Assembly (NCBI GenBank): GCA_963971405.1
Contig: OZ020484.1
Span: forward strand, 40,446,770 to 40,510,769
Direction: 5' to 3'
Source: Psococerastis gibbosa
Lineage: Eukaryota > Arthropoda > Insecta > Psocodea > Psocidae
Length of the DNA stretch: 64,000 nucleotides
Part shown: in pieces, positions 35,030 to 59,071 of the stretch
How positions within the stretch are numbered: the stretch's first letter is position 1
Layout of the letters: the number at the start of each line of letters is the position of its first letter
Position numbers and translations under genes: made by a program
The notes under the pieces: generated by a model
What the model was told of the DNA's origin: nothing
Databases searched by the model: none
What the model saw: only the letters and a program-made list of their open reading frames with translations

Positions 35030-35256
35030 GTTAGGTGGCTATTCCACTGACCTCGTTTTTCATAATGCACGTGACATTGACGTGGTAGCAGGCATCATTA
35101 GTAAGTCTCTGCCAGATTTTAAGGAGACTACAATGGAGATACTTAACTTATCAATTATAAATCAAGTTATAATATGGAGACTTATTAATGATGTCTGCTA
35201 CCACGTCAATGTCACGTGCATTATGAAAAACGAGATCGGTGGAATTGCCGCCTTAG
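35030..35256. repeat. Hairpin family copy A
   Basis: Tips TTAGGTGGCTATTCCACTG and, from the right, TAAGGCGGCAATTCCACCG. Then a copy-specific arm (TTTTTCATAATGCACGTGAC and its complement) and the shared core GACGTGGTAGCAGGCAT with its complement. The loop is about 90 bp. No ORF. Confidence 0.85.
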
Positions 35257-35407
35257 TGGGGACTTGCTGCTCAGGCAATCCGTAGAATTCATAAATGGAA
35301 GTAACGATTTTTAAAGTCTGCCTACTTATAGGCGTCAGAAAAACACATTGTTTTCATCCTTCATGAGTATATTAAAGGTGGTTTTATACCTGATAATGGA
35401 ACAAATG

Positions 35408-35796
35408 AGTTGCCTATTTTCAATCTATCTATCTAGCCTAATCTATCTCCGTTTGACTTTACTTTTCAGGAGAGCTAGGAAACCAATTTTCTCCCAATTT
35501 CTTATCCCCATTAGCTCTCAATTAATATGTGGGAGCCATCTTTGTTATTATTGTGATCACAATGGCTGACGCTGATTGGCTGAGATAGAGCTGGCACGTT
35601 CTGGTATAAGGAAAGGACTAAGATAGATTTTCTTAAAAATAAGTCTAACATTAGAGCGGCATTTAATATAGGAAAAAACGTTTTTGACGGCATCGTGAAT
35701 TCTGTCTATCGATAGACCTTTAAATAAGGATTCCAATACAATCAACAACTCATATTCGAAAAAAATGGAGATAGACCCATTTCAAAGTAGGCAACT
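35408..35796. mobile_element. MITE-like element with AGTTGCCTA ends
   Basis: AGTTGCCTATTTTCAATC at the left and AGTTGCCTACTTTGAAAT read back from the right, each followed by CTATCTCC-type sequence. Length 389 bp. ORFs within it show no domain. Confidence 0.55.
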
Positions 35797-36711
35797 AAAA
35801 TATTGTGTCCGTTATGAGTACATGTATCTCATTCTTCTATCCTAAATATATACCAGTGTGGTATGACAATCAATGTTGCCTAAAACCAAAAAATCTATGC
35901 TTGTAAAATTGTAATCCCGTACCGTAGGTACCGTTTTGCTCAAATTAGGTTTTTACTTGGTTGATTTTGTGTTTCAGCATATACCCCACCTCCTGAGAAC
36001 AACTGGATGAGCTGAAGCGTCTGCAACATTTGTCGTACTACTGAATTTCATAGTTATTTCCCTATTGAATTCGTAGGTCCATACTTACCCCCTGACAATT
36101 CCATTTTATTGTATTTCGCAAGTATTAATTTTTCAAATTGACACCAAAGAATATTTTAAGACTACACCTAATATTGTAGTATAGAATTGTAGGTATAATT
36201 GATAAGTTACGAATATATCATTATGGTATTATGATAGTAGTTTGAAGTTTGTCCGATAAAATGGCTGTTAGGGTAGGTATGCTAGGTAGAAGGCATTTAA
36301 ATAAAACGATTGCCACCATAGCTTGAAACGTTTCTGTAAAGAATACGACAAGACAGCATCACCATGCATTGGTAGATCGGTAGCATTTTACTAGATGACA
36401 GGCTGGGTAATTTTGGAAATTGAGAACCAGCTAGTATACTTATGAGTTATGTTATCGGACTTTCTTCGAGCAAAGCTTTAGTTTATAAAATACCGGTAAT
36501 CTACATGTGATTTCCCTTTTTTAACGTGAATCGAATAAATTAATTCTGTCTTAATTAGTTAATTATCAGAATCGTGACTTGACACTGGTTTTATACTTAA
36601 ATATACATAGGCCGGTGTAATAGTTAAATAATTTACCATGCTTTACTGTAGGTACCCAGTGGCACTTAACATTTCAGCACTTCAATGCATTTCCAGTCAG
36701 TCTGCCTGAAG
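35797..36711. other. No gene recognised
   Basis: AT-rich, without supported ORF or repeat. Confidence 0.45.
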
Positions 36712-36894
36712 CAGGGACGGATCCAGCCCATTTTTTTGGGGGGGGGGTTGTTGTGGGTCAAAATAGGAAAAACATATGTAGGGTCGATTAAATCAGAGCG
36801 TAATAAATTAATTTACAATAGATTTACCAAATTTTGGGAGGGGGGGGGGGGCAGCTACCCAACTGCCCCCCCCCCCCCTCTGTATCCGTCCTTG
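36712..36894. mobile_element. hAT-like MITE with 8-bp target-site duplication
   Basis: CAGGGACGGATCCAG at the left and the complement of CAAGGACGGATACAG at the right. Flanks GCCTGAAG (36704-36711) and GCCAGAAG (36895-36902) agree at 7 of 8 bases, as expected for hAT insertion. Inside are G- and C-runs that can pair with each other. The ORF at 36685-36924 runs through this repeat and is not a gene. Confidence 0.85.
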
Positions 36895-36902
36895 GCCAGA
36901 AG

Positions 36903-37382
36903 GCAAATCCAGATTATAATCTGAAGATGCGATTATTTAATCACGTTATAAATTCATAATTCGGATGTATTTATTTAGTAATGTAGCTTTAATACACACC
37001 TACAGGGATTATGAATTAGGTTTACGTCTACTACTTATGATAACAGCGAAAGATTAGTAGTAGGCCTAATTTGTTCTGTGATAGGGTGGTTTGGTAAGCT
37101 AACCATTCTTGTTGCTAATTATGTTACCACGTTTCGTCAGTTATCCTATCACGCACTTTATCGTACTGACTTTGTACGCAAGCTTTGGGTCGTTAAAAAG
37201 GAAACAGGGAATATTGGGCAACAGTGGGATTTAAAACAACGTCGGCCATTGTGAATAAACCTGTAACGTATTGGGAATTGAAAATAGCAATGTAATGAAA
37301 TGGGTAATTTTTATTTTAGACGAGCTTTAGCCCATGATTGTATTTTTAAAGATTAATGGCAATGGTGTAATACTATTTAACT
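36903..37382. other. No gene recognised
   Basis: AT-rich sequence with no supported feature. Confidence 0.4.
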
Positions 37383-37670
37383 AAGGGTTAGGGTTAGAGA
37401 GTTTGCATTTCAATCGGGAGAATGGTAGTTCGAATCCTCAAGGGGATCGGATTTACTTAATAATTCAGAGTAGAATACAAGAGTGATGAGTCAATCGACC
37501 AAAAACCATCAGTCCTTATCAGGCCTAAGACTGATGATGGGAGTAGCACCCACCCGAAACGTCGCCCCCATCCCCTGACAATGGGCTCAACCCTAATTGT
37601 TTGATGCCTCTAATGACTATTAACACAACAGGCAATGTAAGTTCAACTAAACCTTTGTTAAATAGCTTTA
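37383..37670 (+). repeat. tRNA-derived SINE family 3, copy 1, with hammerhead-like core
   Basis: GTTAGAGAGTTTGCATTTC and the pol III B box GTAGTTCGAATCCTC head the element. The body contains CTGATGATGGGAGTAGCACC, then CACCCGAAACGTCGC, then GCCTCTAATGACTATTAACA. A second copy with the same order is at 57928-58213. The CTGATGA ... CGAAAC pair resembles a hammerhead ribozyme core, with TGGG/CCCA as a possible stem II. Confidence 0.75.
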
Positions 37671-38399
37671 GTCCAATAGGGCCACTCTTCTAGCAGCTAA
37701 TTAAACTGGCTAACCAATTAAAGGGCGGTTCCCATCATCGCTTGAAAAGTCACGGTTAGGAATACTGCATACTGTATTCCTTACGGATACATTTTAAGCG
37801 ATACTATAGTGGGATATCGATATCAAAACTTTAGAAACACAACAGCTTAATTTTACATCACCGAATATTATATGCTGTAGCTTACTTACTTACTTACTTT
37901 AAGATTATGTTATAGTTGTTCGTATTGTATGGAATTGTCGGGTGTATGTACGACATTATTATTTTGCATGCTCAGCTCATCCTTTGTGAATTCGTCCGTG
38001 TGCTCAAACATTGTGGAATAGAATGGATCAAACGCCGCCACAAATTTTAAGTTGCCAACGACAAACATAGACACATGCTTGTCACAATTGTACAATAGTA
38101 TTTTATTCTTGTAGAAAATTGAATGCCAAAAAAGGTTTAATATTATGTTATAAAAAATAATTGTACAGTATAGGTCTTACTATTACATTACGATAGTAAT
38201 TGTACATATTTTAATATAAGGTACATAGGTACCTTAGTATTATTTTTCAATAAAATGAGAAGTTCATCTGTTGATTTTTCATTCAGCCTAGTTTCTATTG
38301 TATTACGGCACCTACCTAAAAGCTCGATTCAAATGGAGTCTATTAATCACTCATTAAAAAAAATAACTTTGTAGGCCTATAGTTTTACGTAATAAAATT
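37671..38399. other. No gene recognised
   Basis: Contains a hairpin-like pair around GCTTGAAAAGTCAC (37739) and TTTTAAGCGATACT (37792), a possible relative of 1712-1777, and a (CTTA)n run at 37882-37899. Confidence 0.4.
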
Positions 38400-38404
38400 A
38401 AATT

Positions 38405-38470
38405 AAAAAATACACAACCGGTTTCGGCTCACGCCATCGTCAAGTGCGATTGAAAGCAGATAAAACAAAA
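38405..38470 (-). repeat. Repeat end with CCGGTTTCGGCT motif
   Basis: On the minus strand it reads TTGACGATGGCGTGAGCC then GAAACCGGTTGTG. This motif type is known from retroelement ends that carry hammerhead-like sequence, including Penelope-like elements. Only this short block is seen, so the family is unproven. Confidence 0.4.
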
Positions 38471-38889
38471 CGGTATGTTAGCTAAAACAAAACAAAACGC
38501 ATTGTCAGGATAACACACAGCATCGCATAAAGTAAACAATTTAAATTGAACAATTAAACATTAACCAGTGGAAGTCTATTAATGAATATGCAAAGTGTCT
38601 GTTAGACCCGTAACAGCTTTAGGGACGAATTAGCAACCGAGTTGAGAGTATGTATATGGTGGACATAGGAGTGCCGTGCAAAACCAAGATGACTGGAGGA
38701 GTATTGTTGAGCTGGCCAAAGTCCATATATGATTAAGAGCTGTAGAGCCAGAAGAAGATGAGGAGTTGCTGGACAAGATAGAAATAATATGTGGTTTCTG
38801 ATTGATTTTGTTAAATAGGTAAATGGGTTTCTCTCATAGGTCGAAACAGGAGAATAAGCAACTAATAATTTTATATCCCTTTGTCGTAA

Positions 38890-39245
38890 ACCATTTACTT
38901 ACTTCTTAGTACAGGCCACAGGGCTTCCAGCTCAGGTGATGCCGACTGCCCGATGTCTCAGAAATGCCCTTGATGCTAGTGTCCACATGTTCGGCGTTCA
39001 CAGGATCTTTTGATGTCCCCCTCCTTGTGTCCAAACTGATCGCGTAGTTTGTCCCGTTGTGTGCATGGGGCCGAGCACTACAGGAGTATGTGCTCCAGTG
39101 TTTCATTAGCTATAGGCCACATGCACGGCATACTGGAGATTCGATTAGATGGTAACGGTGCAAGTATTCATTGGTAGTAATGTGGCCTGTTCTTGTTCTA
39201 GCAGCAAAGGATGCAACGCATCTGTTTATCCCGTGATATTGTACC
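38890..39245 (-). pseudogene. LINE ORF2 C-terminal fragment (RNase H / zinc-knuckle end)
   Basis: On the minus strand, RTGHITTNEYLHRYHL is followed by a C-x2-C (PVCRACG) and, across a frame change, ETLEHILL, the order found at the C-terminus of I/R1-type non-LTR ORF2 proteins (RTGH...YLHRF...C-x2-C...ETxEHxLLxC). The frame is broken at least once between the Cys pair and TLEH. No RT domain is present nearby. Confidence 0.65.
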
Positions 39246-40195
39246 GCTGAAGCCGACTTAGGTTGTATTACATACAGTGCTCAACCAACCATTTAACCCA
39301 ATTAAAACTCCCACAATTATTCTTAATAAAATAAAAATTATTCTAAATTTTTCAGCGGTAGCCCTTCTGGCTTATTGAAAGCCAGTACGCCTCCTCTTTC
39401 TAACCTGAGGTTTCACACTGTGTCCTTCTGGTTATAGAAGTGGGTCGTTCTTACTGGAGCCGTTCCTAAGAGTGGTTCTTGAGCTAGGAACTATAGTTGC
39501 AACGGCTCCCGGATACAAAAATATTAGGTTCTTGAGAAATGCAACTCTAAATGGGGATTTCCGGTCAGTTACTTAAAAAGTTCTTACTCCACGGAAAATT
39601 AGTGACAAATTAGTGTTAACGATAATATTTTTTTACTTATTTTTACATAAGCTAACCATTGGCAAACTTGTTCCTACAGAGTATGAACAGGGCACGATTA
39701 CTAGTCACCAGTATTGGGATTGAGCCTAAGCCAGGAACTGGTTCCTAAAAGAACGCATATTAGGAACCGTTATCTTTGATTCACTGAAACTGGTAACACA
39801 AGCTCCTGAAAAAACCAGGAATGGCACATCTCTATCTGGTTACACTTACACCTTCCATTAGTCAGATAGCTACTGTGGTAGCTCCGGCACTAGGTCCCCC
39901 TATCGCCCGGGGCTCATTCGTTCCTGTAGCGTATTTACTCAACAACCGTCCCACATTTTTGCCATTACCTATTAGACCTATGGACTATCAATGTATAGTC
40001 ACTATACAATATTTAGATGACTAATACTCCATGTTTAAACAAGTTGTTAAAAGCTACAGCCAGCAACTATAGTTGCTCAAGAAATCTCGCCCCTGTCGGT
40101 TCAGCCATTTATATCTATTCTCAGTTATAATACTTTTATTATTTATTATCTATAGAATTTGCGTATTGTGTTGTGACTGCCATTCCATCCTTTAG
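39246..40195. other. No gene recognised
   Basis: Includes several GGTTCTTGAG / AGGAACC-like short reiterations at 39450-39810. No domain-bearing ORF. Confidence 0.4.
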
Positions 40196-40260
40196 TGCTG
40201 TGCTCCCTCATCATCTTCGCCGTGGGCCCTCGGTACTACCAGACCACAGGACCAGCCTAA
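40196..40260 (+). CDS. Candidate terminal coding exon of an unidentified membrane protein
   Basis: A possible acceptor (CATTCCATCCTTTAG, 40181-40195) precedes a stretch unlike its AT-rich surroundings. In one frame, entered with one base from a previous exon, it reads LCSLIIFAVGPRYYQTTGPA and stops at TAA 40258-40260; TAAG is followed at once by GTAAGAC. The hydrophobic start and Gly-Pro-rich end look like a membrane protein's C-terminus. In another frame it would join in phase to the LRR gene's exon at 26444. I do not recognise the protein, and the match is short. Confidence 0.3.
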
Positions 40261-40261
40261 G

Positions 40262-40871
40262 GTAAGACCTTCACAACCAACCATTACGCAAATACCTGTA
40301 AAATAACTCATTTAATAGGAGCAGGATGCACAGTGTTCAGATTGTTTACTTTTGCAAAACTGCTGCAAATCTAATTCGACAAGTCAGTCTCCACATGCCG
40401 ATGACTACATTAGGTCTACCGGCAGATGCTACTTTTAAGAGGATATAAATATATTAAAGTGAATTCTGTGCAAATGACGCTTGGAAAAACGTCTGAAGCG
40501 CCTTAAATGAAGTAAATTCCAAACTTAAAGTTAGGCCTAGATTAAGCTTTGATGTAGCTCTAGTAGTTTTGCCCTTTTTTTGCTCTATACAAAACGCATA
40601 TCTTATTGTATGGTAAGCAAAGTGCTGCAACTATTATTTATAAAGAGTAGAAAACAGCTTCGCATTGTATTTACATAATTATATTCGGAAAGTAATTTGA
40701 AGAAATTAATCTTAAGTAAATTTAAACACTTTTCCACGCTCACTTTGGTGCATTTTTTTTCTGAACTTCGGTGGAAGGTGTACGGGTTGGCAGGTCTCAA
40801 TAATATTTCTTTATGCAGTAGGATCTTCATGCTGTATTATGTTTCGTATTTTACAAAAATTATTTACTAGT
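40262..40871. other. No gene recognised
   Basis: Nothing supported; ORF at 40603-40830 has no domain. Confidence 0.4.
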
Positions 40872-40879
40872 ATCATGAA

Positions 40880-41168
40880 AGAGTGCTAGACGCTATCGGG
40901 GAAGAATGACAGTTAGTAGCCCAGATACGAATCAGGAGAGCGAAATGGATGGGGCATTTGCTAAGGCACGAAAATCTGATACACACTATTATCGAGGGCA
41001 CAGTAGAGGGAAATAACCGAAGAGGACGGCCGAAGAAGGATTCATGGATCAAGTAAAAGAAGAGGAAAAGGAGCAATATCATATCAAAAACTGAAGAGGA
41101 AGATCGAGGACCGAGTAAACTGGAGGACGATAACCAATCGCTAAGATTGTAACCTTAAGAAGAAGAAG
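40880..41168 (+). mobile_element. 5'-truncated RTE-type LINE end with 8-bp target-site duplication
   Basis: Nearly identical to 18333-18632: GAGTGCTAGACGCTATCGGG, GAGCGAAATGGATGGGGCAT, CCGAAGAGGACGGCCGAAGA and an (AAG)n tail. Encodes the RAKWMGHLLRHEN region, but small deletions break the frame. ATCATGAA at 40872-40879 and 41169-41176 is a perfect flanking duplication. Confidence 0.87.
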
Positions 41169-41176
41169 ATCATGAA

Positions 41177-42887
41177 GATAGTTAGGCCCAGAAGAATAAT
41201 ACAAATGATCAAGCTAGTTTGCATGATAGTACGCAAAAGATCATTTGGGTCAGTTTTATGAATCAATAACACACCTTGAACGTTCAGTTATATACGAGCT
41301 TACATCGTTCTACAACTGCTCTTCCATAGTCTTAGTAATAAGGAATTCATCTAAGTGAGACATCCTATTAAAATACTATGTATAAGTAGTAATGTGCTAC
41401 AATATGTCAGCCAATGCAAACACAATAATATGGATGTTTTATCAATACTCCCTGTATTAATTAGGGGAAAAAGAAGACATTTGTCGCTTCGTAAGGCAGG
41501 CCATGGAACTGATGGAAAGGCGAAATGGAAAGTGACACGAGAAAGATGTCAGTGGTGACCTGGCTAAGGAAGACAACTATAGTACCGTGATGTTTAGAGA
41601 GGTTAAAGCTCAACCCGATCTGTAGTGCCGAGGAAGTAAAAGAACTAGCTGTTTTAATTAGTAGAATTAGACGAATTTTAACCAGCTACGAACTATGGCT
41701 TAAAATATAGTGCTGACCCTGACAGGGCAGTTTTGGATTGGATTGAATTTGGATTAGTACTGTATTTATGGGTAATTGGCACAAAAGTTATGAAAGGTCA
41801 TTAATATTATTCCTGAAAAACTGCAACTTAGTAGTCATAATGTTGAATACCATTAATTTGTATGTAAATTATACCTACTTCATGTCGCATAATGGGTATG
41901 TACATAGCATGTATTACAATATGGAATGTACCAAATATATAGTATATATCCTGTTAAGAGCGTTGCTATATATCATTCACTGGAGTCTAGACCATGATAA
42001 ATCGTGGTTGAGATTTATTGTGCTCAATTTTGAAACATTCTCCACCTAACGGAACCAGAGGCAACTTCCGACGTAAATGTAACTTCAAGCTGGCCTCAAC
42101 AGATAACACGCCCTGCTGCTCAATCATATTACCAATTTGGAGGAAAAGTTTTTTTTTTAGAATTTCCCTTCTATTCCAAAACCTATAGTTTAAAATGAAT
42201 TTTGCTTCCTTATTTACTCCACGTTACAAAAATCTACTTTTAGTTCATATGACTGTTTCGTGAATTAGAGGCATCAAAATGTGTAAATCTACCAAAACTT
42301 AACGAACACTATTCATTTCTGGAACTAACCTTATATTGTCCGAGCAAAAGACGATTGGGGGACGCAGATGAACAGAATTATATATGAGCTCCCTCATAGA
42401 CTCACGCCAGAAAAATATTTAGCAAGAAATTTGTAGCAAATTATATATGGCCTTCAATTTGGAATAGGGCAATGTTTGTGAAGAAGTTTAATTCGTTTCA
42501 AGCTGCAGCCAGAAAACCTCGATTTTTCCACTTTTTATATGCATTCTTCGCAATGTTTCGTCTCGATATTTTGGCGGGAAATGACAGAATCGTATTCAGC
42601 ACCCCATAAACATAAAAAAATGAAAAAAATCGATGCCAATGGAACAATCCTGATTTGCTTACTTATTTACTGGACTATATTTTAGTTAATTTTGTCCGAT
42701 GACTGCTGTCGTCTTAGTTTTATGTCTGTGAAGGTAGTTTTTCTGTAGGGGTTCCACCTTGTACAAGCAAAAGTCATGCTAAAACCTAGTAGATACTTAA
42801 ACAGGCTATATGTGGGTCTACGTTGACAGAGGTTGTTTGTGATGCCAAGTTCGATACAATAGATCTATGATTTTCCGGGGTATCTGA
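41177..42887. other. No gene recognised
   Basis: ORFs at 41355-41558 and 41768-42049 lack domains. A block at 42540-42660 resembles the repeat at 21640-22060. Confidence 0.45.
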
Positions 42888-43036
42888 TTAGGCGAGGTTT
42901 CCACATACGTCAATGGTCAATGGTAAATATGGTTTTGACGTGGTAGCAGACATTTTTAGTATGTCTTTAATGTCTGCTAAAACGTCAATACCATATTTAC
43001 CATTGACCATTGACGAATGTGGAAACTCCGCCTTAA
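42888..43036. repeat. Hairpin family copy B
   Basis: Tips TTAGGCGAGGTTTCCACAT and the complement ATGTGGAAACTCCGCCTTAA. The copy-specific arm (GTCAATGGTCAATGGTAAAT) is fully repeated as its complement. Core GACGTGGTAGCAGACATT on the left and AATGTCTGCTAAAACGTC on the right. Almost the whole 149 bp is stem, with a loop of about 15 bp. Confidence 0.9.
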
Positions 43037-43142
43037 CTCTACACGCACTTCAGTGATTCCTGTATATTATATTGCAGTATTATAATATGGAGTATATAAC
43101 ACTGACATTAAATTAACTTTGGTTGAAGAGTTAGCCACCACG

Positions 43143-43278
43143 TAATAACCGAAATTAGAGGATATAGAAAAACTGGGCTTGTGGTCCAGCGGTTAAGCTG
43201 ACGCCCCGGTTAGGAGTAGGTCGTGGGTTCGAATCCCGACAAGCCCAGTTTTTTATATCCTCTAATTTCAGTTACTCC
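43143..43278. repeat. Inverted repeat enclosing a tRNA-like sequence
   Basis: GAAATTAGAGGATATAGAAA at 43151 with AACTGGGCTTG is complementary, apart from one base, to CAAGCCCAGTT and the block ending TCTAATTTC at 43269. Including a few more paired bases outside, the stem is about 37 bp. The apex is the tRNA-like sequence at 43175-43247, whose acceptor stem is the inner end of this long stem. Confidence 0.85.
43175..43247 (+). tRNA. tRNA-like sequence, probably not a functional tRNA
   Basis: Seven-base acceptor stem GGGCTTG/CAAGCCC, a pol III A box (TGGTCCAGCGGTTAA) and a B box (GGGTTCGAATCCC) at normal spacing in 73 nt. The T stem has one mismatch and one wobble. The D stem is imperfect and no good 5-bp anticodon stem can be drawn, so the anticodon (TAG by position) is not trustworthy. 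A degenerate tRNA or SINE head is more likely. Confidence 0.4.
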
Positions 43279-45143
43279 TGTATATCCAGAAGTCCCCTGA
43301 TTTTCTATTTATGTTATGGTCACTGACAAGATTCAAATTGTTAGACAAGTCTGACTCCGACAAAGGCAAACCTAGCCCATATTAAATTATAAATTTTAAA
43401 GATTAAATTGACATACTTTAGGTTGAAGGGAGATCAATTTTCAGTCAGGTTTTTCGTGTTTCACTATTTCTGGATATGATGTCATTGGCACAATCTCCTG
43501 GAGGGCGTCTCTTCAACCTAAGCCAATTTAATCATAAACGTTGATAAGGTACAGTAGGTTTGGGAAGAGATATATGTCATAGGTGTAGAATGTTAGTTTG
43601 AATGCCACTAGTTTCGCATGTCTGATGGGCGCAATTTGAAACTGACAGTAGTTAGTCTAGTCAACGGCTGTAATTCTGTGGATGTCCTTTAATTGTTTTA
43701 GCCCTAAGGAAATTTTGGGTTAGGGCCATAATAATTGTAAAAAAATGTGTTGTTTTCAGGTTGCAAATGTATGATTTGTTACATAACACCTCCGTCAACT
43801 TCACATAGCTATTTTATCACCAATCAGTATCCGCTAATGTGAACCAGACCTATCGTAAGGTACTGTGCCTGTCTAACGCGAAATGATTGCAAACAACAGG
43901 TGTGAAACCGCGTGTAGCCAAGTAGCAGACAGCAAAATAGAAAACCGATGCCAGCCAGTAGTGCAGCAACGGACGCGGCACGGGGTGGACGCGAAAGCTT
44001 GTGCTTTTTCAACGATGCCGCGATCTCCATATGACCTGTGCTACAAACCGAAAATTATTTTGGAAATGTCAACCACCTCGTAAGGTAGGCCAATGAAGTC
44101 TGTCTCTAGATTGTTCCCATTTTTCATAGAAATCTGGCGTAGCTGCCTGTAATTTTATCTTTTTACGGACAATGAGCTTCTTATCATTGTACCGTTTGAC
44201 ACTTGATGAGCAATTGAAGTAGTTGAAAAATTTTCATTCAAAGGAAAACATATAAGCTATGCACCCATATTCCTGTAATCGATCAATAGCGCTTGTTTTC
44301 TTTAATTGTTCGTCGAGCTGAAAGGACATCCACATTAAGTTTACATAATGTTATATACAGTATATAACATAGTCACAAGGTATTGATGTTATGAGCTGAA
44401 ACTAATCAAATATATTGGTAAACCTATGAGGTGCTTCTCTTCTCTTCTCGTCAACATCCGCAATAGTATTTTCCAGCGTATGTGTAACAGTCAGCAGCCG
44501 AGTATATTGAATTGGGCCGTTTCGTTCGTTAGGCTGCTGTAAATTGGACATGAGGTAAATACTCGTGTTTCCGGAAAATCCGGTAACTTTGAACATATCA
44601 CGATCTACGAGTCAAAACATTTGAGCAACTGAATGTTTACCTGAACAAACTTAATGTCTCGGGCAAATGTGGTACAGGCCGATTTGGCTTCAGCGTAGAT
44701 TGGCGGGGCAGATTCAGAATAGTATCAATGTTTTAAGAATGTGAAATAGGCGACCTACATTGCCTATTTTGTTTTCAAACATTTTCACTTTATTTTTATA
44801 TTGACTACAAAATCGAAACTTTGTATGCTGAACCACTAAATACCGCAGCCTACATTATTCACAAAAGTGTCACAAAATATGCAATTTTTGTTTTATTTTT
44901 TTAATTTCTGCAAATTCTGAACATCGTTTTTTGAATCGTTCATTTATTGTTAACAAATATTTATGATTTGAGTCTGCTATTTCTCCCCATTGGCTCTACA
45001 CATTCGAATAATGGAACAATATATGCGATCTAATTAATATGGGTCAAAGAAAAATTGGAAAATGCAATACCTAAATTCAGATTCAAATCGTACACATCAA
45101 AATAAACATTCCAAATATTTCATCGATCGAATAAATAAATATG
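43279..45143. other. No confirmed gene; GC-richer island near 43890-44040
   Basis: A minus-strand ORF, 43824-44030, begins MEIAASLKKHKLSRPPRAAS and contains a hydrophobic run AALLAGIGFLFCCLLLGY. It stands out from AT-rich flanks but no splice sites or family support it. Confidence 0.3.
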
Positions 45144-45552
45144 TGATCGAATCATAGATTTTAATAATAATACTAGATATCGAACTCCCATGGTTTCTGT
45201 ATGGAGTGTTGTGAAGCCATCCGCCATTGCTATAAGTGGATAGAAAGAACGGAAAGAATGCAAAGTACCTGTTATTAAATGAGTACTTCTCGACAAAATA
45301 AATTTTATCTTGATTTAATTTCAGTTAATATTGTCTTTTATGTAACTATTGATCAAAATCCACTGAAAATAAACTGAAAGATTGAACTTTTGAACGTAAT
45401 TTTCACAGAAAATGTTAGGAAATCTCATAAGAACGCAAGGTGTTAATGAATGTAAACAACGTTTTCTATCCACTTATAGCAATGGCGGCTGGCTTCAAAA
45501 TATGCAGGGGAGTTCGTTGTCTAGTATTATTATTAAAATCTATGGATCGAAT
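45144..45552. repeat. Fold-back element
   Basis: Left arm 45144-45248 (ATAGATTTTAATAATAATAC, then GCCATTGCTATAAGTGGATA) is complementary to right arm 45463-45552, with a 20-bp indel. The loop is about 215 bp. A short flanking motif, ATTCCAAATATTTCATCGAT, recurs inverted at about 55255-55278. Confidence 0.85.
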
Positions 45553-47129
45553 AAATACTGGAGGGTGTACAGAAGGCCAATTCAGAAAGTAAAGTTAAGT
45601 CTTGGGGCGGCCAATTTCTTATTCAGGCACGAGTGTTGCATCTTATCAAATGTTATCACACAGAATAGTTACTTGGACCCTTTTTACTTTTTACCTTATA
45701 CTTATAGTAAATTCGTAACGTAGATCAATAGTAGATTATCTATTTCTATTTTTTATTATTCTCTTTGACTTACGTGTGTTGTGCATAGCTTGTAGAAATA
45801 TATATCCTACTATTACATGATACTAAGAACAAATTAATGGGAATACCCCCACAACGCGTTTTTTTGTATTTTGTATGATTTTCCCAGGAAATATCGATCG
45901 TAAAATATCCAATAAATAATCAAAAATGCTCCTCTAAATTTTGATGTATGACATTGTGGCCTTCACTAACACCAATTGGTCGCAGTTCTTCAACTCAATT
46001 CAATAATTATAAATAATAAATATGTGTTAGAAATCTGTGTCAGAAAAATAACTTCTGTTTGACGATATATTTTTGTTAATTATTGATATTTAATTTTTTA
46101 AATTTATTAGGATTTTCCCCGTCCCATTGTCTGGGGCAGCTGCCCCACATTTTCAGGTAAAAGAGTTTGATATAATGTTACGAAGTGAAACTACATCTGA
46201 TAAAATTGAATTGTTTCGGCCATGATATTGTAGACCAATAGACTTTCTGCACATCTGCTTTCAGAAACCACGAGCCACCACTGCTGATATTGTAATGTAA
46301 ATAAACAGGGTTATATTGCTACATTATACCATATTATACAGCGAATAGCCTATACATGTTGGAATTCACCTACAATAGATGCATTAAATTCATGCCCTAA
46401 TAATGATAATGGTGTAGTATAGTAGTATAGTGTAATGATAATAAGCCTTCTCTATTGATTGATTTATGATGGCACTACCGATTATGTGAACATTGGACAG
46501 CCCGAATTGTGGTGCCCTACTGGTTGTAGCCTACTTGTTCATTACGGCACCTAGGGAATAATTTTTCAAAGATAATAGTAGTCAGTGACCGTCTGACCTT
46601 ACAGGTACTGTAAGTGATACTGAACCATGCGCCAACAATTGTGTAGATACAATTGGTCACTACAACCAGGACCACTGGTATTGGGTATTTGGTATTTGGG
46701 GGGTGCTCGGATATTAACCTTTTTTAGAAAATATTTATTTTAGCGACTTGTCCGGGGAGATAAAGCCAGCGCTGACTACCCCCCCCCCCCCTCATTCTGA
46801 GTACAGCCTTGACAGTTTACATTCAACGGATAAATCGCGTGTGTATTATCTGTTCTATTCTATCAAATTAACGGACTTTGGATGCACAATTTCTCTCTTT
46901 CACATATGGCATTGCTCCGTTGTTAAAAGTTGAGAAAGCATGGCAAGACTACTCCATCAACGGTTTATTGTAGGCAAACCTATGCAATTTTATTGTTACT
47001 AAATTATCTCTGTTTTGATGAGAGATTTCATCTGCCTATTCAGACGGCGATCAATGCTTGACTTCCGGAAAATTGCTTTATAGCTTTTCATTTCATGACT
47101 CCCTGAGCCTAAAAGCACCCCCATTCAAA
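45553..47129. other. No gene recognised
   Basis: Short unsupported ORFs and a C-run near 46779-46792. Nothing else supported. Confidence 0.45.
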
Positions 47130-47977: not shown

Positions 47978-48243
47978 AAAACACTGTAACTATAGTAGAT
48001 GTTATATTATTATTATTTGATATCAACAACTATAAGTTGAAATTAAATTCGATTGGTTATAAAAAGAGTGAAAACTATGGGAAAAAAATGCTTAAATTTA
48101 ATTGAAATAAAAATAGATATGAACATTTTTCGAGAGGCAAGCTATCTAATGCTTACTAATCAGCAATAATATTTTAATAACAGGTCTCATCTGGTTATCA
48201 GGTGGGTGAATGTCAGTCTAATGCTGTCTCTTAGACTATCAGG

Positions 48244-48387
48244 TTAGGTGGCTATTCCACTTATCAATAATGCGTCATTTGTGCTTCAATTATTGATGAG
48301 AATTTTTTTTACTCTATATAAAAACAAAAATCTCATCAGTTATTGATGCACAAATGACGGAATATTGAAAAGTAGAATAGCCGCTTA
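48244..48387. repeat. Hairpin family copy D
   Basis: Tips TTAGGTGGCTATTCCAC and, from the right, TTAAGCGGCTATTCTAC. The arm (TTATTGATGAGA and ATTTGTGC blocks) pairs with the right half. It lacks the shared core. Confidence 0.75.
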
Positions 48388-48553
48388 AAGGCAAATACCT
48401 AATGAAAGCATACCTTGAACTCTGATCAAGGACAATTTACAATTTTTTTGCAAAACGTATAATAGGTACTTAATAAGTCTCTTTGTTGACACGATGACAT
48501 TAAAGTACGGTGCTTTGTACCTTGTAGCCTATTTGATATTTTATCAACTACTG

Positions 48554-48703
48554 TTAGGCGCTTATTCCACCAACGTAAATAGTGATAGTAAATGTAGTAG
48601 GTATTGACGTCGTAGCAGACATTTTTAGACTGTCTTTAGTGTCTGCTACCACGTCAATACTACATTTACTTTCACTATTTACGTTGGTGGAATAAGCGAC
48701 TAA
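48554..48703. repeat. Hairpin family copy C
   Basis: Tips TTAGGCGCTTATTCCACCA and, from the right, TTAGTCGCTTATTCCACCA. The arm ACGTAAATAGTGATAGTAAA is copy-specific and complementary within the copy. Core GACGTCGTAGCAGACATT pairs with GTGTCTGCTACCACGTC. Confidence 0.9.
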
Positions 48704-49155: not shown

Positions 49156-49163
49156 CCAATAGT

Positions 49164-49454: not shown

Positions 49455-49462
49455 CCAATAAT

Positions 49463-50499: not shown

Positions 50500-50532
50500 T
50501 ATTCCGCTAGGTTGGCTTAGTAATAGAACAAA
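50500..50532 (+). repeat. 3' end of SINE family 4
   Basis: TCCGCTAGGTTGGCTTAGTA followed by ATAGAACAAAAAA matches the end of the element at 29945-30140. Confidence 0.65.
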
Positions 50533-53500
50533 AAATTCATTATTTATTTACTTTTAGCGGACGAACGACAGGCCAAACCGACAGTGAGCAGCAGCATGTG
50601 CGTATACCTGCCCCCTTACTGTTAGAAAAAAAAATGCAGATATTTTCTTCTTTCTTATGGCTGATTCAGTGTGTGAAGATATTACTGTTGGACCAGCAAT
50701 TGAGACAAACGAAACACCGACTATTTTCGATTTCATTAATTATGCTTCTGGAAGTTTCGGTTTCGTTTCGATTCTTGGTCCAACAGTAGATAGTGTAGCT
50801 AGTGCCGCTAGGGGTAGTGTAAGATTAGTGGCTAAGCTATTAATATAATTTATATTAGGTGATGTTTTGAATAATATTAATATATTTCACCTTTTTATAA
50901 TAAACAATTAACTTTCAAAAATACCTTTCATTTCTTGATTTTTTCCGGATCGGACTACTACAAGTTTTGAACTGCAACTCGTAGGTGAGAAATGGCGGCA
51001 GCCTTCTTCTGCTATACGCGCCAATATTTGAAATCTCGTAACAGGTGATTTCAACTGAAAAGAGCGGGGCTTCACTCCTACCTGCCCATCTGTATAGGCT
51101 AGATATTAAGTTGTGCACAGGTAATTCCTGTTGTAGTTAATGATGACAACATAGTCTATAAACGAGATTCAAGTGAATTATAGGGGTCTATAGCCCCGGT
51201 AGCGTTAATAGTGTTCCTGTTACAAACTTGTTTCCCCCGCAAATGGACTTTTCGCAGATTGAAACTCTTGGGATACCGTACCCAAATATAGACGATGACA
51301 CTTTGCCGGTTGACCGGACTTTGACTTAATAATGCGACGCGATTGGCCCGAGGGTCCTCCACGGGTCCTTCTCTTAACAGTGTCTCCTTTCAGTTGTCTC
51401 CATTGCCCCCCCCCCCGCACCAGCAGTAAAATGCAAATTGTTGTCAATGCGGTGAAAAATTTCATTTTAGCTTGCTTCTGTTGGTTGAGATTAGGGGTAT
51501 CTGCAGGTTCCATTCGAGTTGATTCCAGAATCCAGTATAGGTTATTGTATATATATCTTTCGATTAACGAGTATTTGGTATTTTGGCTACCGACTCCGGG
51601 TGGTATCGATTCCTTTTCATCGGTATCAATTGGTTGGATGATCAATATTTGCTGTTACACAAAGGTTCACTCTCTATCAATTACTGTGTTCGAGTCAAAT
51701 TATACCGTACGATTTCCACAACATATAAACCAGGCTTCGTTTCGAAACTTTTCGCGCAATTTACCCAATTTTTTTTAACGCACAGCTCTTGAATCGGCTA
51801 AAGAATTGGACCGACAATAATTATTCCAGAACGACATCTAGAATATGGTAGCAGTTGTTGCTAAATTGGAACCAAACCACCTTCATTTGGATAAACATTA
51901 TAAAGATAAGGTAATGCACCAGTCCTATATTAGGACTAATACATGCTGGGATGAGCAGGCATTGTGATCTTCATTCAGTACAACACATGGACTTATTTGG
52001 CAGCATCCCCCCCATGAAAAATTTTCAATTAAATAAAACTAGCACCGTTATTATATGAATAAGTCTTCGTCTGTAAATTGTAAGAATCATAATTTACTGC
52101 GCAGCTCCGTATGACCCACAAAATGTTTTCTGCCTATGTTTGCACCAAAGCTAAGACCGCCACTGAACACACTACCTATTATTATTGGGTTTGCTGTAAA
52201 ACAATTAGGCTTGTGCCTTAATACCTGTACCAAGTTTTAATTAATTTTACAGTATCGATGTTTTTCCTGTTAAAATATTTGAAAAAAAAAATTAATATTG
52301 ATGTTTTTTTCTTCTCTAAAGTCTATAAAACGCAGTAAACCAAACTCAGCTCTTTTGATAATTTAGGCAACACTTAACAACCTATTCACTGCCAGCACCG
52401 GAATTACAGTTTGAGCGAGGTAGTCCAAAGTTTAGTCTACAGACCTCGGTGGACCAGTAATTTATTTACAAAGCTCCAAGAACCAGATGATCAAGGCATT
52501 AAGACCAACAATGTGAGCGATTGAAGTGAGAGCATTGCAGGGGGAGGGGGGGGGGCAACTCCATCCCCCTTACTGCCCCTCGAGGTACTCTCCTTGCTCC
52601 AATTTTGGTTTGATTATTTGTATTGGATTTGATTCAGTTTCCAAGTATGCTGACGAGTTGCCTCAAGACTCTATTATACGAGGGGCTAAGCTTTATGGCG
52701 ACTGTTTTGATTTTTATTTTATTTGCTGGATACTCCGGTTAAGTGCTGAGCGCTGTCCTTGCCTGCCATCCTTTCAGACGCTTCGCCTCCTTTTATGTCC
52801 ACTGCCTGTTCCAGCAGGTTTACGTCTTCAATATCCGTTTACGGGGGCATTTTTATGGCAAACGGCATCCCTTGCGATGGAGTAAATTTTTATAAATAAC
52901 TCTACGTCATAGGGACTCAATTTTCCTTGATAACACATAATCATGCGGTGGACTCAGAATTTTTACTAGTGGGAAGCTTAGCCCCGATTTGAAAGACAAA
53001 ATGGGCCCCCTTCCCGAAGTTATTCGCAGTTCAGTGAAACTAGAAACTAGGATAGCACATAACACTGAGGAAATTTTTAAAATTATGGTGGGAAATTATA
53101 ACTTTGGATCCGACTCTGATTTACCGACGTCATTTTGGCATCAGTCTTTTTCAGTTCCTTGCTGTTTCAGGTGATAATAGTCCAGTTTAATCAACTGAGA
53201 GTCACTACCACCGGTCCACCGCACAGCTGTTGACAGTAATGGTTTATCCTATTCAAAAGCATGGCGGTAGACTACAGTTTCTGATAGATTACAAAAGCTA
53301 CAAGTTTATACTGACACATTGTGGGAGTAGCTCTAAGAACCTGGGGGCTTACTATGGTGATTATTTTAAAACTTAACCTGGGATTAAAAATGTAAACATG
53401 GTAATTTTAGAATGGAAAGTGCTATTCATAATTGTTTTGTTTACATTTTCATCCCCATGGTTAAGTTAATACTAAACGGCATAGCAGACCCCCTAGGGAC

Positions 53501-54779
53501 CATTACTTACAGCTTACATAACGATGACGAACAGGTACTGCTTCAGTCTTTTGGGAAAAGGATGAAACCAATAAATTAGAATAGATCGCGCCTCACCGTT
53601 AGCTAAGTGTGGCCAGCAATAGCGGGCAAACTCTGGTGGTGTTAGTCATATCGTCGTGGAAATACCATGACTAGATTTGAAATTTGTTCTGTTCACGCAA
53701 AAAGGACAAAAAAAATTATAAGTAGAAGTTCTACGCACTTGACCTTGCGGCACGACTGCGGGAGTTGTTGTTTGCCAGAGTCTCGGGTGGCCATCTCACA
53801 AGCTTAATTTTGAAAGTATTGAACTTATGGCTAGAACCCCCCGCTTACACTGGGTCACCCCCGCCGAATCGTTGATCGTTAGGAAGCATAGACTTGAATT
53901 TAAGTATATAAAACAGTATCTTTCAGATTCTAGTTACCATAGGTTTACCTAGTCTTCGTAGGAAACCGAACCGTTATCTCCGGTCACTGCTGATCACAAC
54001 AGTACGTACAATTGTAAACAAGGCCGAAGCTGAAAATATTTTTACTACAGCGGATGTTGTACAACATATTATCAACAGTTAAAACAATTAACTGGCAATT
54101 TCATTCAGAATAGTAAAAAAATACAATAATGAGAGAAATATATGGAGGGAAAAAAATATGGAGGGAAAAAAATGAGCTCAGCTCTGCAATATGTCTTGTA
54201 AATGTAAAAACTCTCATGTTTGCAAAAGACATTCATAACATGAGATGAAGAAGTTCTCATTGTCAAGAAAATGAGATTATGTGAAATGGTATACGTCAAG
54301 ACATCAATCAATGGCTGCATTATTAGTTCGGCGTATTAGACTCTCCCGTCACGTCACGACTCCCTTGATTGAAAGAACTTGGAATTAAGCCAGTTGCTGA
54401 CAGTTCCTCACTGTCACTCATTTCAACAATTTTATCATCTTCCTATTTGTTATCCTATTAAATTTAATGTGGATAAATGTGGGCTCCTTAAAAATAGAAC
54501 ACGGGGCTTCATTATTAAGTTCTACTCATGGGAGTTCAATGATCCAATTTATACGCCGAGTAAATGTCCACGTTGGTCAGAATTTAACTATAACATGGAA
54601 AATCAAAGTTCGAAACTCAGAAAAGGGCAAATTTTCTGACTACTATGGGTTCACCCATCATTCCTATTCCCTAATGGGTACACAGGGGAAAATGAGGCAG
54701 CCAGGTTGGCCAAAACATCCCAAATATAATGTAATACTGAAAATGGAAACATTTTCCACCTAGCTGGGTCCACCCAACC
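50533..54779. other. No gene recognised; a few unassigned ORFs
   Basis: A 63-codon ORF, 50657-50848 (MADSVCEDITVGPAIE and onward), and one at 51332-51778 have no domain that I recognise. A G-run sits at 52540-52554 and a pyrimidine run at 51407-51418. No TIR or tail signature could be assigned. Confidence 0.4.
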
Positions 54780-54923
54780 CTAAAAAGCCAGAGGAGAGTC
54801 CAGGAAGTCTGAAATATTTGCAGCGTACACGAGATAGAATGGAGATCTAAATATATTGAGGTTTCCTAACCTAACCTTGTGGACCCCCCCCCCCGCCGAA
54901 AAAAACTTCTGACTACGGCCTTG
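54780..54923 (-). repeat. Poly-C repeat fragment
   Basis: ATATTTGCAGCGTAC, then AATATATTGAGGTTTCC, a C-run at 54885-54895 and CTACGGCCTTG. The first three blocks recur in the same order at 63388-63470 and part of them inside the TCTG-family element at 3815-3880. Confidence 0.6.
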
Positions 54924-55270
54924 CCCTAATTTGTTATATTGTGCCTTGGCTGCTAAGACCGTTACCGACGACAGCATCCCAAATAGATTAGTGCAGAGAA
55001 GATCCTCTAACAGTGATCAAACCTAGATTATTGGGTTGCTGTGTAACGGCGTTTTTTTTTGTTACGGTACCTCTGTGGTAAAAGTGGATTCCCATTTTAC
55101 TTCTGCTGTAACCCCTTATATTTTATTTAGTTTTATAGTTTTGTTGGAGTTTATTATTATTACACTTCGCCGGTGATGTACCTACAGTACGGTGGGTATC
55201 TACATCAAAACAACTGATTAACGGTCTTGATTACACACTAATATTTATTTTATTCGATCGAAGAAATATT
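54924..55270. other. No gene recognised
   Basis: Nothing supported. Confidence 0.4.
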
Positions 55271-55289
55271 TGGAATGTTTACGTTTACC

Positions 55290-55443
55290 CAGGGGGGTGG
55301 TCTTTGGGGTCCCCCCCCCCGAAATAAATTTTTGTGTGTTAACCTGTATGTTTTGAATAATTTATCCATTAATTCATTAATAAATTACGTAAAAAAATGG
55401 ATGGACCCCCCCCCCCAGAAATCAAAACCTGGGCACGGCCTTG
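55290..55443. repeat. Poly-C repeat with two C-runs
   Basis: C-runs at 55310-55320 and 55406-55416, and an end GGGCACGGCCTTG like that at 54923. The left border is unclear. Confidence 0.5.
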
Positions 55444-55458
55444 CGTTGAAGTGTACGA

Positions 55459-55735
55459 TTCTTAGACCAGAACATACTCTAGAGGCGGCATTCTCGATGC
55501 ACTCCATGAGAAAGTTTTGGTCCCATGATTATGTGTATCTTTCGCCAGCGGATGGCGTCACAGCCCTGATTTATGCTGACAAAATATTTATTTGTTCACC
55601 AGTTACCTAGCAACAAAGTCTCTGTTGTCACCTTGTCACCCGAGTGCTTTTGCCAGTGTCTGACGTCTTTTTATGGTGGTCACTCGGAAATTATAACATG
55701 GCGTGTCTCGAGTAGGCTATTATATGGTCGAAGAT
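55459..55735 (+). mobile_element. MITE of the ACCATATA family, copy 2
   Basis: Full-length counterpart of 32641-32923 in the opposite orientation. Shared blocks include TTTGTTCACCAGTTACCTAG and GAGTGCTTTTGCCAGTGT, with the end TATATGGTCGAAG. Confidence 0.8.
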
Positions 55736-55763
55736 ACGATACGATACGATACGATACGATACG
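55733..55763. repeat. (GATAC)n microsatellite
   Basis: Five to six GATAC units beginning exactly at the right end of the preceding MITE. Confidence 0.85.
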
Positions 55764-56534
55764 AAGGCATTAAACTTTCCAATTTTTGTAAGACCCATAT
55801 ATATTGGATCGTATATTTGAACAATATTCGAGTGCGTAATGAGAGTCTTCTTCTTGAGTTACAATCAATGGGTTGGTTTGCAGCGAATGTTGTAGTTCTC
55901 TTCTTCACTCTTGTCTGTTTTGTGCGGTCCTTTTTAGTCCTTTAAGATCCTATGATCTTAGTGAGAGTAAAATATTATATTTTATAAATTTATAATTCTT
56001 AAATTCGGAAAACCAATAAAAATATCGATGCTTAAGTTCACTAAATCAGATCTCTACGGTAACTCATAAAATATTACCGCTTTATACAATATTGAGGAAG
56101 TAGGCATATGAAATAAAATTCCGTGGCGTTATTATCATAAAATATGGCGATAAGGTCGAGAGTTGTGAGTTGCCTTCAATGGGAATGCATGGAGCTGCGC
56201 TACTTTTCCAGCCTTGGAAAATGATGACTGTCATATCCTTGATTTTTTTTCTGAGGGCATTAAAAACACATTTTCCAATGGGAAATGAAGGAAATATTGA
56301 AATATTTTACGACAATTTACCGTATGACTTCTTCTTTCTTCATCATCTTCTTCTTCACCATTTTACTTCTTCCGGTTTTACAGCCCTTCATTGGCTCAAC
56401 ATCATTATGCGATTAAACTCCTCCTTTTCCTCTTCTTTTCGCCAAGCTATTGCTTATGCACAATATAATATATATACATATACATATATACAGTATATGT
56501 ACATTGTATTTGTCAAATTTCTGGTCAATACACA
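55764..56534. other. No gene recognised
   Basis: AT-rich, ending in a short sequence that leads into the ATT repeat. The ORF at 56170-56631 owes its length to that repeat. Confidence 0.45.

Positions 56535-56630
<96 letters not shown>
56535..56630. repeat. (ATT)n microsatellite, about 32 units
   Basis: Uninterrupted ATT repeat of about 96 bp. It produces false poly-Leu, poly-Tyr and poly-Asn ORFs. It may be an expanded LINE tail, since other LINE tails here are (TTA)n. Confidence 0.9.
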
Positions 56631-57065
56631 AAGGCTTTCCCGACTGAAGTCAGATGATGATACAATAGAATACGGGATTATAATTCGATAGAGAACTTCC
56701 AAATGGTTCATCAGTAGTTGCGCTCGACATTGCTTCATGTCAAAAGCATTCAACTACGTAGCAAGTTAGTCAAGGGAGCAACTAATGTATAACGTATAAA
56801 TATTTATTCTGTGATAACGGTAGTTTACTAGTAGCCCTTAACATACATACTGTATGTGTATTCCAACAAACATAGGGTCAGTTGTGTTCCCCAGGTTGCA
56901 GCCCGGGATTAGTAGTAGAAAACAAAATGCAAGACAACAAGGAAAGAAATCATTAATGCACAGTCGTGTCACAATTGACAGATAAATGAACAGAACACAT
57001 TTAAAGTAATATCATTGATGGAGGGACAGGCAGAGCACAAATCAAAGACAACAATGCATAGTAGG
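56631..57065. other. No gene recognised
   Basis: Nothing supported. Confidence 0.4.
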
Positions 57066-57190
57066 TGATGAAGCAGTCGAATCCGGGATGATAAGCCGTG
57101 GTCGTTCTGAAAGCGAACTTCCAAACGTTTCGTCAACATCTGCGATCCACATCTTCAGGGGAACTGCATAGACTTTTAAGATTGTGACTC
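57066..57190 (+). repeat. Single arm of the GATGAAGCAG fold-back family
   Basis: TGATGAAGCAGTCGAATCCG, GCCGTGGTCGTTCTGAAAGC and ACTTCCAAACGTTTCGTCAA match the arm of the element at 33330-33602. No second arm follows. Confidence 0.7.
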
Positions 57191-57927
57191 TCTCCGGTCC
57201 TGTAATGGGGATGACAATGAATCCCCCCTCCCCCGTATATATTTTATCCTTATTTTTTTCACTCTCCTCTTTTTGTTTTCTTCTCTATTTAATTTCAGCT
57301 ATTCAATAATGCAATGTTTTTGTTTTGTTTTTTAGGGTTAGCATGAAAACAAGACTTTAAATAGTCTTATTGTTTGCCTTTTGTCGATTTTCAATAAAGT
57401 CGTTTTTCATTTTATTTCATTCATTTCAATTCATTGTACCTCGGAGGCTCAGTAGCAATGCACAGAATTATTATATATATTATAAACGTAATTGTTTGTA
57501 CGAGCCCTGATGGTCTGATAGTCTGGAGTGACTGACGCCACACTTAATCATTCCAAAATGATTTAAGCTGCTGGAAATCCTTGCCAACAAAGGGTGGAAT
57601 TCCACTGCTGAAAGCCCTTCTATTAATTCCCAGCGACTGGTCCACTCCAGGAATTAGGCTCATCCATCAGCACACACAGCACTGACTGAACACCGGAAAA
57701 CTTTAATCTCTGCTGATGAATACATATGGAAATCCAGCCCCAAAGTGCTCCCGTATTTTTAGGGATGGTGGCACAAATTAATCAACCGATGGACAACTTT
57801 CGTACAGGAAAATGCTTTTGCCCTATCAATCAAATCTTTCAAATCATGGGCTCAACCAATCAAAATATTGGGTTTTGACGTAATTTCTCTATGGATTGCT
57901 ACATTAGGTTAGGACCGTGGATGAATA
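57191..57927. other. No gene recognised
   Basis: Nothing supported. Confidence 0.4.
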
Positions 57928-58213
57928 GTTAGAGAGCTTGCATTTCAATCCGGAATACGGTAGTTCGAATCCTCAAGGGGATTGGATTTACTGAATAGTT
58001 CAGAGAAAAATACAAGGGCAATGAGTCAATGTCAGCAGTCCTTATCAGGACTTAACCTGATGATGATGAAAGCATCCTCTTCCAAGATGTCGCCCCCTTC
58101 CTTTGACATCGGACTCGGTCCTAATTATTCGATGAATATGAGGCCCCTGCCTCTAATCACTATACCTACTTGTGCAACAGGTAATGTGAGTCCAACTAGC
58201 CCTCTGTTAAATA
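57928..58213 (+). repeat. tRNA-derived SINE family 3, copy 2
   Basis: AGTTAGAGAGCTTGCATTTC, B box GTAGTTCGAATCCTC, CAGTCCTTATCAGGACTTAA, CTGATGATGATGAAAGCATC and GCCTCTAATCACTATACC. Here the CGAAAC block of the first copy has decayed to CCAAGATGTCG. The ORF over it is not a gene. Confidence 0.75.
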
Positions 58214-58681
58214 ATATAATACCATTTCCATTAAACTTCACCAATAAATTATATGAGAAAATATTGCATTTGTAGACATTGATTATCAAATTAGGGATTG
58301 TGTGAAAGTCTTTTAATACAATACGTTGCTGCTGAGCCCAAAGTTGAAACCATGTTGCTCTGAGCTGAATTAGTAGAGACTAAGATAAGAAAGAAACTCG
58401 GTTAATAAAGAATATTATTTGGCCCCACAGCGAAAGTCCGCCAAGACGTGAGGAGTTTTAGGAGCTAATGCAGCTGAAGCACAAAACCGCAAAGAGTAGA
58501 TAAAAAGCTGCTGTATCGCTGACGCCCAGTAGGGACAAAACCGAGGAATAAGTCCTAAGTAATTGGGAACAAGCACGGGCCGGTCACGGCAACGTTAAGC
58601 TTATCAAGAGCGGAGTCATACCACACTTGTAGGCAAACACAAGAGAACCATTCTAAACCAAAACTACCAACAGTAACCAAA
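58214..58681. other. No gene recognised
   Basis: Nothing supported. Confidence 0.4.
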
Positions 58682-59071
58682 TTAGGCGCCCATTCCACCG
58701 ACCGGGTAGGGCTATTTACAAAAACGGTGACGTGGTAGCAGACATTCAAGACTTAGGCGGGGTTTCCACTGACCTCGCATTGCAGAATTGATGGAAATGT
58801 TTATTTTCCTCTATGCCATAGTTAAAATTGATCAATGATCATACAGTAAAATCACAAACAAGCAAACCAAAATTAAAAAATGGCGTCATGGGATATGTTA
58901 AGTACAAACATTTTAATAGATTTCTATAAAAAGAAAAATTCTAATTTCCGTCAATGTCATTTGCATTCTGCAATGCGAGGTCGGTGGAAACACCACCTAA
59001 GTCTTGAATGCCTGCTACCACGTCACCGTTTTTGTAAATAGCCCTAGCCGGTCGGTGGAATGGGCGCCTAA
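58682..59071. repeat. Hairpin family copy E, with copy F nested in its apex
   Basis: Outer arms: tip TTAGGCGCCCATTCCACCG, arm GGCTATTTACAAAAACGGT and core GACGTGGTAGCAGACATT on the left, with near-perfect complements ending CGGTGGAATGGGCGCCTAA on the right. Between ATTCAAGAC and GTCTTGAAT, exactly at the apex, lies a second element, 58753-59000, with its own tips TTAGGCGGGGTTTCCACTG and the complement CGGTGGAAACACCACCTAA. Confidence 0.9.
58753..59000. repeat. Hairpin family copy F (inner, nested)
   Basis: Arms ACCTCGCATTGCAGAAT and ATTCTGCAATGCGAGGT enclose an AT-rich interior of about 150 bp. It lacks the shared core. Confidence 0.85.

Follow-up and report, generated by a model that had tools for sequence, protein, structure and literature searches.

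Introduction

PIF/Harbinger elements are described as carrying a DDE transposase and ends of 14-25 bp, and as being flanked by 3-bp TTA or TAA duplications (PMC2213677). Ends that stay alike within a copy have been described for Galileo, an element of the P superfamily: in Drosophila mojavensis they are 98-100% identical within a copy, the repeats have been extended by taking in internal sequence, and in the proposed model one end is overwritten by a copy of the other, which yields the arrangement TIR1-F1-F1-TIR2 (PMC3573991). Template switching in gap repair has been named for Galileo of D. willistoni (PMC4168063), and a review describes replication-linked template switching at palindromes (PMC7999016). 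For the insertion sequence (IS) ISWpi1 of Wolbachia, conversion has been reported in which one terminal repeat takes on the sequence of the other (PMC3004938), and the CMITE families of corals, which are miniature inverted-repeat transposable elements (MITEs), are described as sharing an internal region that is better conserved than the ends (PMC2872659). Here we analyse a family of short hairpin elements of the insect Psococerastis gibbosa (assembly GCA_963971405.1) in a stretch of 64,000 nucleotides, termed the window (contig OZ020484.1, positions 40,446,770 to 40,510,769 of the forward strand), and in the whole genome. The elements fall into many subfamilies, and the patterns of change on their two arms are most simply read as occasional copying of one arm onto the other.

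To our knowledge, palindrome maintenance in MITEs seems more often assumed than shown. A literature search, with subscription journals mostly outside its scope, found neither this hairpin family nor a comparable genotype series, and six 14-mers of the tip or core had no match in the searched paper texts.

Results

From the letters of the window, a sequence-only reading had picked out five hairpins with shared tips, a core in four of them and self-complementary arms that seemed specific to each copy, and it proposed either that there are many young subfamilies or that one arm of a copy is made from the other. Inverted repeats are indeed found at all five places, far beyond chance, with arms 84-96% complementary (Table 1). 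The core likewise stands as described, with eight matches in the window vs 0.03 expected and presence in four of the five copies. The shared tips hold in a looser form: a 17-nt pattern (up to three changes, no shuffle control) places tips at both ends of all five copies, whereas the strict 19-nt pattern, with six window matches vs 0.01 expected, occurs only in the 35030 and 58682 copies. The last of these is a composite of two nested hairpins. Two further tip-like sites in the window, 49242 and 57592, were discounted as chance matches.

The copy-specificity of the arms gave way in genome-wide counts. In 409,210,807 bases in 68 contigs, the window included, the tip was found at 10,001 forward and 9,928 reverse sites with up to two mismatches (reversed control 16 and 17), which suggests that the elements number ten thousand or more. 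Allowing three mismatches, the 35030-type arm occurs at 104+98 sites (202), the 42888-type arm at 1,761+1,750 (3,511) and the 48554-type arm at 902+901 (1,803); the outer arm of the 58682 composite has 3,317+3,352 exact matches (6,669) to a degenerate pattern that takes in several haplotypes. The reversed-pattern control was 0 for all four, and with such counts these are subfamily arms. The 48244 type, counted in the fetched sample only, is represented there by 17 elements. Each of the four arms counted genome-wide thus occurs in many dispersed copies, the outcome that the sequence-only reading had itself set against its proposal. Its alternative of many young subfamilies holds in part, as the hairpins fall into many subfamilies. 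The counted arm types are each common to about 100 to thousands of copies, and the apparent copy-specificity is an effect of viewing 64 kb only. By alignment, moreover, some seemingly unrelated arms are identified as diverged homologues, the 42888 and 48554 arms both aligning to one nested copy in the coding relative L094 described below (86% and 77%). Caution is needed, because arms within a small window can seem copy-specific though they are part of large subfamilies. In public collections the core had no exact match in viral contigs and three in bacterial contigs, and the tip had two in viral contigs; by our estimate a few are expected by chance at that length.

For comparison of the arms, elements were picked by exact tips on contig C1, and of 243 candidate pairings 111 were retained, the six subfamilies together comprising 79 rows (12, 10, 18, 17, 8 and 14 elements; L026:4203 and L073:343 are each counted in two). 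When arms were compared within and between copies, as the sequence-only reading had proposed, those of the same copy were closer to each other than to the arms of other copies in all six sampled subfamilies (permutation p <0.0002 to 0.011). Alleles present on exactly two arms lay on both arms of one copy in 27 of 53 cases vs about 2.2 expected. Shared alleles, that is alleles common to two or more elements, were found on both arms in excess in four subfamilies (observed vs expected 21 vs 7.3, 21 vs 5.2, 24 vs 6.8 and 117 vs 41.0). Identical changes thus occur on both arms of a copy more often than expected, except in two of the six subfamilies and among the private changes of the 35030 type. 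In the composite subfamily, every element with one of the shared differences at columns 6-33, which include one CpG site, has it on both arms; differences at columns 4-5 are mostly one-armed, and at two other CpG sites, columns 2 and 41, only one arm varies, the pattern expected of independent decay.

The composite also yields a series of arm genotypes. A pattern with two ambiguous sites found 4,526+4,602 composite arms genome-wide (control 0), which would correspond to about 4,500 composite elements. For this and the other genome patterns the first 100 places were used; here they gave 28 pairs, and 44 arms without an exact partner were left unscored. Among these listed matches the pairs are AA 12, BB 3, DD 7, AB 3, BD 3 and AD 0, the haplotypes A, B and D being successive single-step differences at the two sites. 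Matching pairs number 22 vs 10.1 under random pairing, a value that none of 200,000 shuffles reached, and AD pairs number 0 vs 8.3 (p ~1e-5). Because A, B and D differ by single steps, the mixed elements resemble intermediates, in a series whose direction we infer. Three mixed elements, L096, L097 and L098, have arm mismatches of 3 over 104 nt, 4 over 103 and 7 over 104, respectively. Among the matches listed in an earlier outer-arm search, 19 pairs include three C/C, a further haplotype.

Single copies show the same kind of change. The hairpin at 48554-48703 has GTAAAT on both arms where its family has GTCAAT. In an exact 25-nt context, a search that overlooks arms with further changes in that stretch, this allele is on three arms genome-wide, namely both arms of this copy and one arm of a short derivative on contig C3 that has it on that arm only. 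The mirrored allele of L025 is on 15 arms genome-wide, and L025 alone has it on both. A mirrored change in L017 was rejected as private, since it marks a large haplotype of 2,412 arms.

What looks like a change made in a single step is L030:4457-5149, a hairpin of about 690 bp (693-bp stretch) with TTA on both sides. Each of its arms corresponds to the left half plus interior of the asymmetric element L009:1821-2251, as far as an internal palindrome, and aligned to each other the arms agree at 304 of 312 pairs. The two halves of the interior both match one stretch of L094 in opposite directions; in L009, the inner element of the composite and L006:1694, that end of L094 has a single match each. 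The flank of the L030 palindrome has 228+268 genome sites, and L030 is the sole both-strand pair among the 100 listed. We considered the hairpin as parent of the asymmetric form and rejected this, as the asymmetric layout is also found in L094, the composite's inner element and L006:1694. Because this layout recurs and L030 is the sole listed both-strand pair, the hairpin form seen in L030 is most likely derived; the L030 arms would then have diverged since or come from two templates.

Sampled pairings (n=91) span 101-900 bp, mostly 120-400, and the elements are short, of high copy number and, with coding capacity judged by eye, non-coding. The same TTA or TAA stands on both sides in 53 of 97 free-standing elements, with mismatched TWA in 18 and other flanks in 26; in an earlier element set, flanking 3-mers were identical in 43 of 93 vs a shuffled mean of 30.9 (maximum 41 in 1000 shuffles). 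The target site tends to C-TWA-G, with C before TWA in 38 of 97 and G after it in 34. As 3-bp TTA/TAA duplications predominate, the pattern is that of PIF/Harbinger. Of 14 composite copies, 11 show TTA..TAA at the target site of the inner hairpin, one has a matched site and two have other flanks. Copying through that point would leave TTA..TAA, yet this is probably one inherited event. A profile search of the genome gave 150 DDE_Tnp_4 and 113 MADF matches. In L094 (C2:18156100-18159560) a tip and arm precede the start of a MADF gene (33.3 bits), and a DDE_Tnp_4 open reading frame (97.1 bits) lies further in. Over 64 nt, this tip and arm agree at 97% with the tip and arm of L009:1821-2251, and the MADF-gene end of L094 also aligns, at 82% over 158 nt, to the hairpin nested in the window composite. 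Being short, mostly flanked by TTA/TAA duplications and sharing one end with a DDE_Tnp_4/MADF element, the hairpins are probably Tourist-like, non-autonomous PIF/Harbinger MITEs.

Galileo and Foldback elements have a P-type transposase and a 7-bp duplication. Membership in this group was rejected, as the duplication found here is a 3-bp TWA and the coding relative has DDE_Tnp_4. The DDE_Tnp_4 genes L074-L077, of different score classes, were likewise rejected as partners, having no bounding tips within about 1.5-1.6 kb on each side; L076 has a separate short MITE nearby. Of the DDE_Tnp_4 matches, 36 have an equal score of 127.2 bits; they lie at G000:C2:13832300 and 35 other places, are mostly open frames of 384 aa and apparently form a young family. 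L074, one copy of it, is not bounded by hairpin-family tips.

Table 1. Hairpin elements and associated features in the window
Feature	Position	Strand	Arms	Remarks
MITE, 35030 type	35031..35255	.	77 nt, 92% complementary	element 35034-35252, TTA both sides
35030-type core sites	35079-35096 and 35190-35207			
MITE, 42888 type	42888..43035	.	65 nt, 91% complementary	element 42891-43032, TTA both sides; GG/TT difference between arms at apex, as in other copies
MITE, 48244 type	48244..48388	.	67 nt, 84% complementary	without core motif
MITE, 48554 type	48554..48703	.	46 nt, 96% complementary	near-private C>A on both arms, several one-arm changes
Composite MITE, outer hairpin	58682..59071	.	107 nt, 95% complementary	element 58685-59068; TTA left, TAA right
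Composite, inner hairpin	58753..59000	.		at loop of outer hairpin; flanks TTCAAGAC and GTCTTGAA (TTA..TAA)
ATG-led open stretch, 24 codons	58880..58951	+		DNA match to MADF-gene end of L094 reaches 58935

Nesting is also seen outside the window, where L095 (G000:C3:33654900-33655100) is a short 48554-type derivative inside a 48244-type element, a hairpin within a hairpin. The window holds three further inverted repeats: one at 122-509 with other tips and arm pairs of 59 nt and 111 nt, each 86% complementary; one at 33330-33602 with arm pairs of 29 nt (90%) and 70 nt (86%), tips TGATGAAGCAGT and ACATTATCTAGGTA close by on either side; and one at 45140-45557 with arm pairs of 53 nt (85%) and 38 nt (95%) and GATCGAATAAATA-like stretches at both ends. 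A stop-to-stop open frame at 10356-13664 (1,102 aa) contains 22 leucine-rich repeat stretches (Pfam LRR_8), and at 61576-61958 a 192-bp unit is duplicated in tandem with 94% matches, holding a GGTTCGAGTCCC stretch that is tRNA-like by our reading.

Discussion

In this genome we observe the copy numbers, the target duplications, mirrored changes on the arms, elements with mixed arms, and one end in common with a Harbinger-type element. Taken together they are best explained, at a probability of roughly 0.78, by PIF/Harbinger MITE subfamilies that are moved in trans, undergo occasional arm-to-arm copying and decay mostly independently on the two arms after insertion. A DDE transposase would recognise the shared tips and move the elements in trans. 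A lineage would take a change on one arm, and this change would later be copied to the opposite arm at a time when the palindrome is folded back or being repaired, possibly by template switching or hairpin repair. The symmetric element would then spread and found a subfamily, and in each inserted copy both arms would mostly decay independently. When the copying happens relative to transposition we infer rather than observe. It is conceivable, if rather doubtful, that symmetrising is coupled to transposition, with sitting copies gaining one-arm changes and subfamily founders having one arm rewritten from the other, for example via template switching during excision-gap repair. If this were so, the arms would record alternate mutation and self-copying, seen as A/A, A/B, B/B, B/D and D/D.

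Several observations weigh against arm-to-arm copying or limit its reach. Three outlying elements (L031, L049 and L023), which may belong to unsampled subfamilies, contribute 17 of the 27 mirrored doubletons, so that 10 are left without them. Two of the six subfamilies lack the both-arm excess (64 vs 67.4 and 25 vs 26.9 expected), which we ascribe to asymmetric inner stretches. In the 35030 subfamily, 22 pairs whose arms each have one mismatch or none, drawn from 100 of the 202 arms, have 22 one-arm private changes and 0 mirrored ones, and the subfamily's two mirrored cases share one sub-subfamily allele. Among 100 listed exact 42888-type arms a single element has both arms exact, and some asymmetric states, such as the GG/TT apex, are inherited. 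The zero AD count is weak when judged among the six mixed elements alone (probability 0.023), and 5 of the 19 pairs listed in the earlier outer-arm search are mixed, some at a CpG site. One of the two sample-private mirrored changes tested genome-wide, that of L017, is not private, and between the two L030 arms there are 8 mismatches in 312 aligned pairs, besides indels. As to the coding relative, the 3.46 kb read at L094 contain one tip but no second one, and a hairpin-family tip is present at only 1 of 16 MADF gene starts read. Since private changes are mostly on one arm, the arms are not made afresh in each copy; and given the 35030 and 42888 counts, copying looks real but uncommon within a sitting copy.

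How the symmetry arose can be explained in other ways. Ordinary subfamilies might suffice, formed by internal deletion from different Harbinger elements whose ends were long and already symmetric, with no copying within the MITEs. The hundred to thousands of copies of each counted arm type, the arm of L009:1821-2251 that also ends a coding element, the one-arm private changes of the 35030 type and the large haplotype behind the private-looking L017 change all agree with this. It leaves unexplained, however, the one-step mirrored haplotypes with mixed elements, the near-private mirrored changes of 48554-48703 and L025 and the ten mirrored doubletons that remain after the outliers are dropped, and it shifts the same question to the ends of the parent. 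We therefore regard it as unlikely on its own. Selection for a perfect stem, through transposase binding or hairpin RNA, could fix compensating second changes in place of copying, and mirrored changes do restore pairing. Yet many copies keep unrepaired one-arm changes, same-base haplotypes on both arms would need repeated independent hits, and it seems unlikely that selection acts on individual inserted copies like 48554-48703, so that this account appears very improbable.

Snap-back synthesis from one arm, put forward in the sequence-only reading, would, if it made every copy, fit L030, in which each arm corresponds to the same half of an asymmetric relative as far as an internal palindrome. 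Mixed elements nevertheless recur (AB 3 and BD 3 of 28), private changes in the 35030 type are 22 to 0 in favour of one arm, and matched TWA flanks 53 of 97 elements. Because of these one-arm changes, mixed elements and matched duplications, a mechanism that makes the arms in every copy is unsupported; for snap-back in every copy we see hardly any likelihood. What stands of the proposal that one arm is made from the other is occasional arm-to-arm copying, the simplest reading of the mirrored haplotypes with mixed intermediates, the near-private mirrored changes and L030. With thousands of natural replicates of matched and mixed arm genotypes in one genome, the rate and direction of such copying are directly measurable.

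Compared with known systems, the elements resemble Tourist-like and PIF/Harbinger elements in being short, in their TTA/TAA duplications and in the end held in common with an element that has DDE_Tnp_4 plus a MADF/Myb-like gene. They differ in that their inverted repeats span much of the element, in place of the 14-25 bp ends of the published description (PMC2213677), and in that the nested composite is itself a subfamily of thousands, unlike what is described for Tourist-like MITEs. Cores common across MITE families recall the CMITE elements, which are piggyBac-related and are likened here by the description of their core alone (PMC2872659). Conversion between the ends of one element links our case to ISWpi1, a bacterial IS with 23-bp ends in which conversion is reported as tied to element inversion (PMC3004938). 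Galileo belongs to another superfamily, its repeats are given as about 0.9-1.3 kb, and the available part of that account contains no genotype series with mixed-arm elements (PMC3573991). Galileo in Drosophila is nevertheless the closest precedent, for the copying of one end onto the other follows the same logic as L030.

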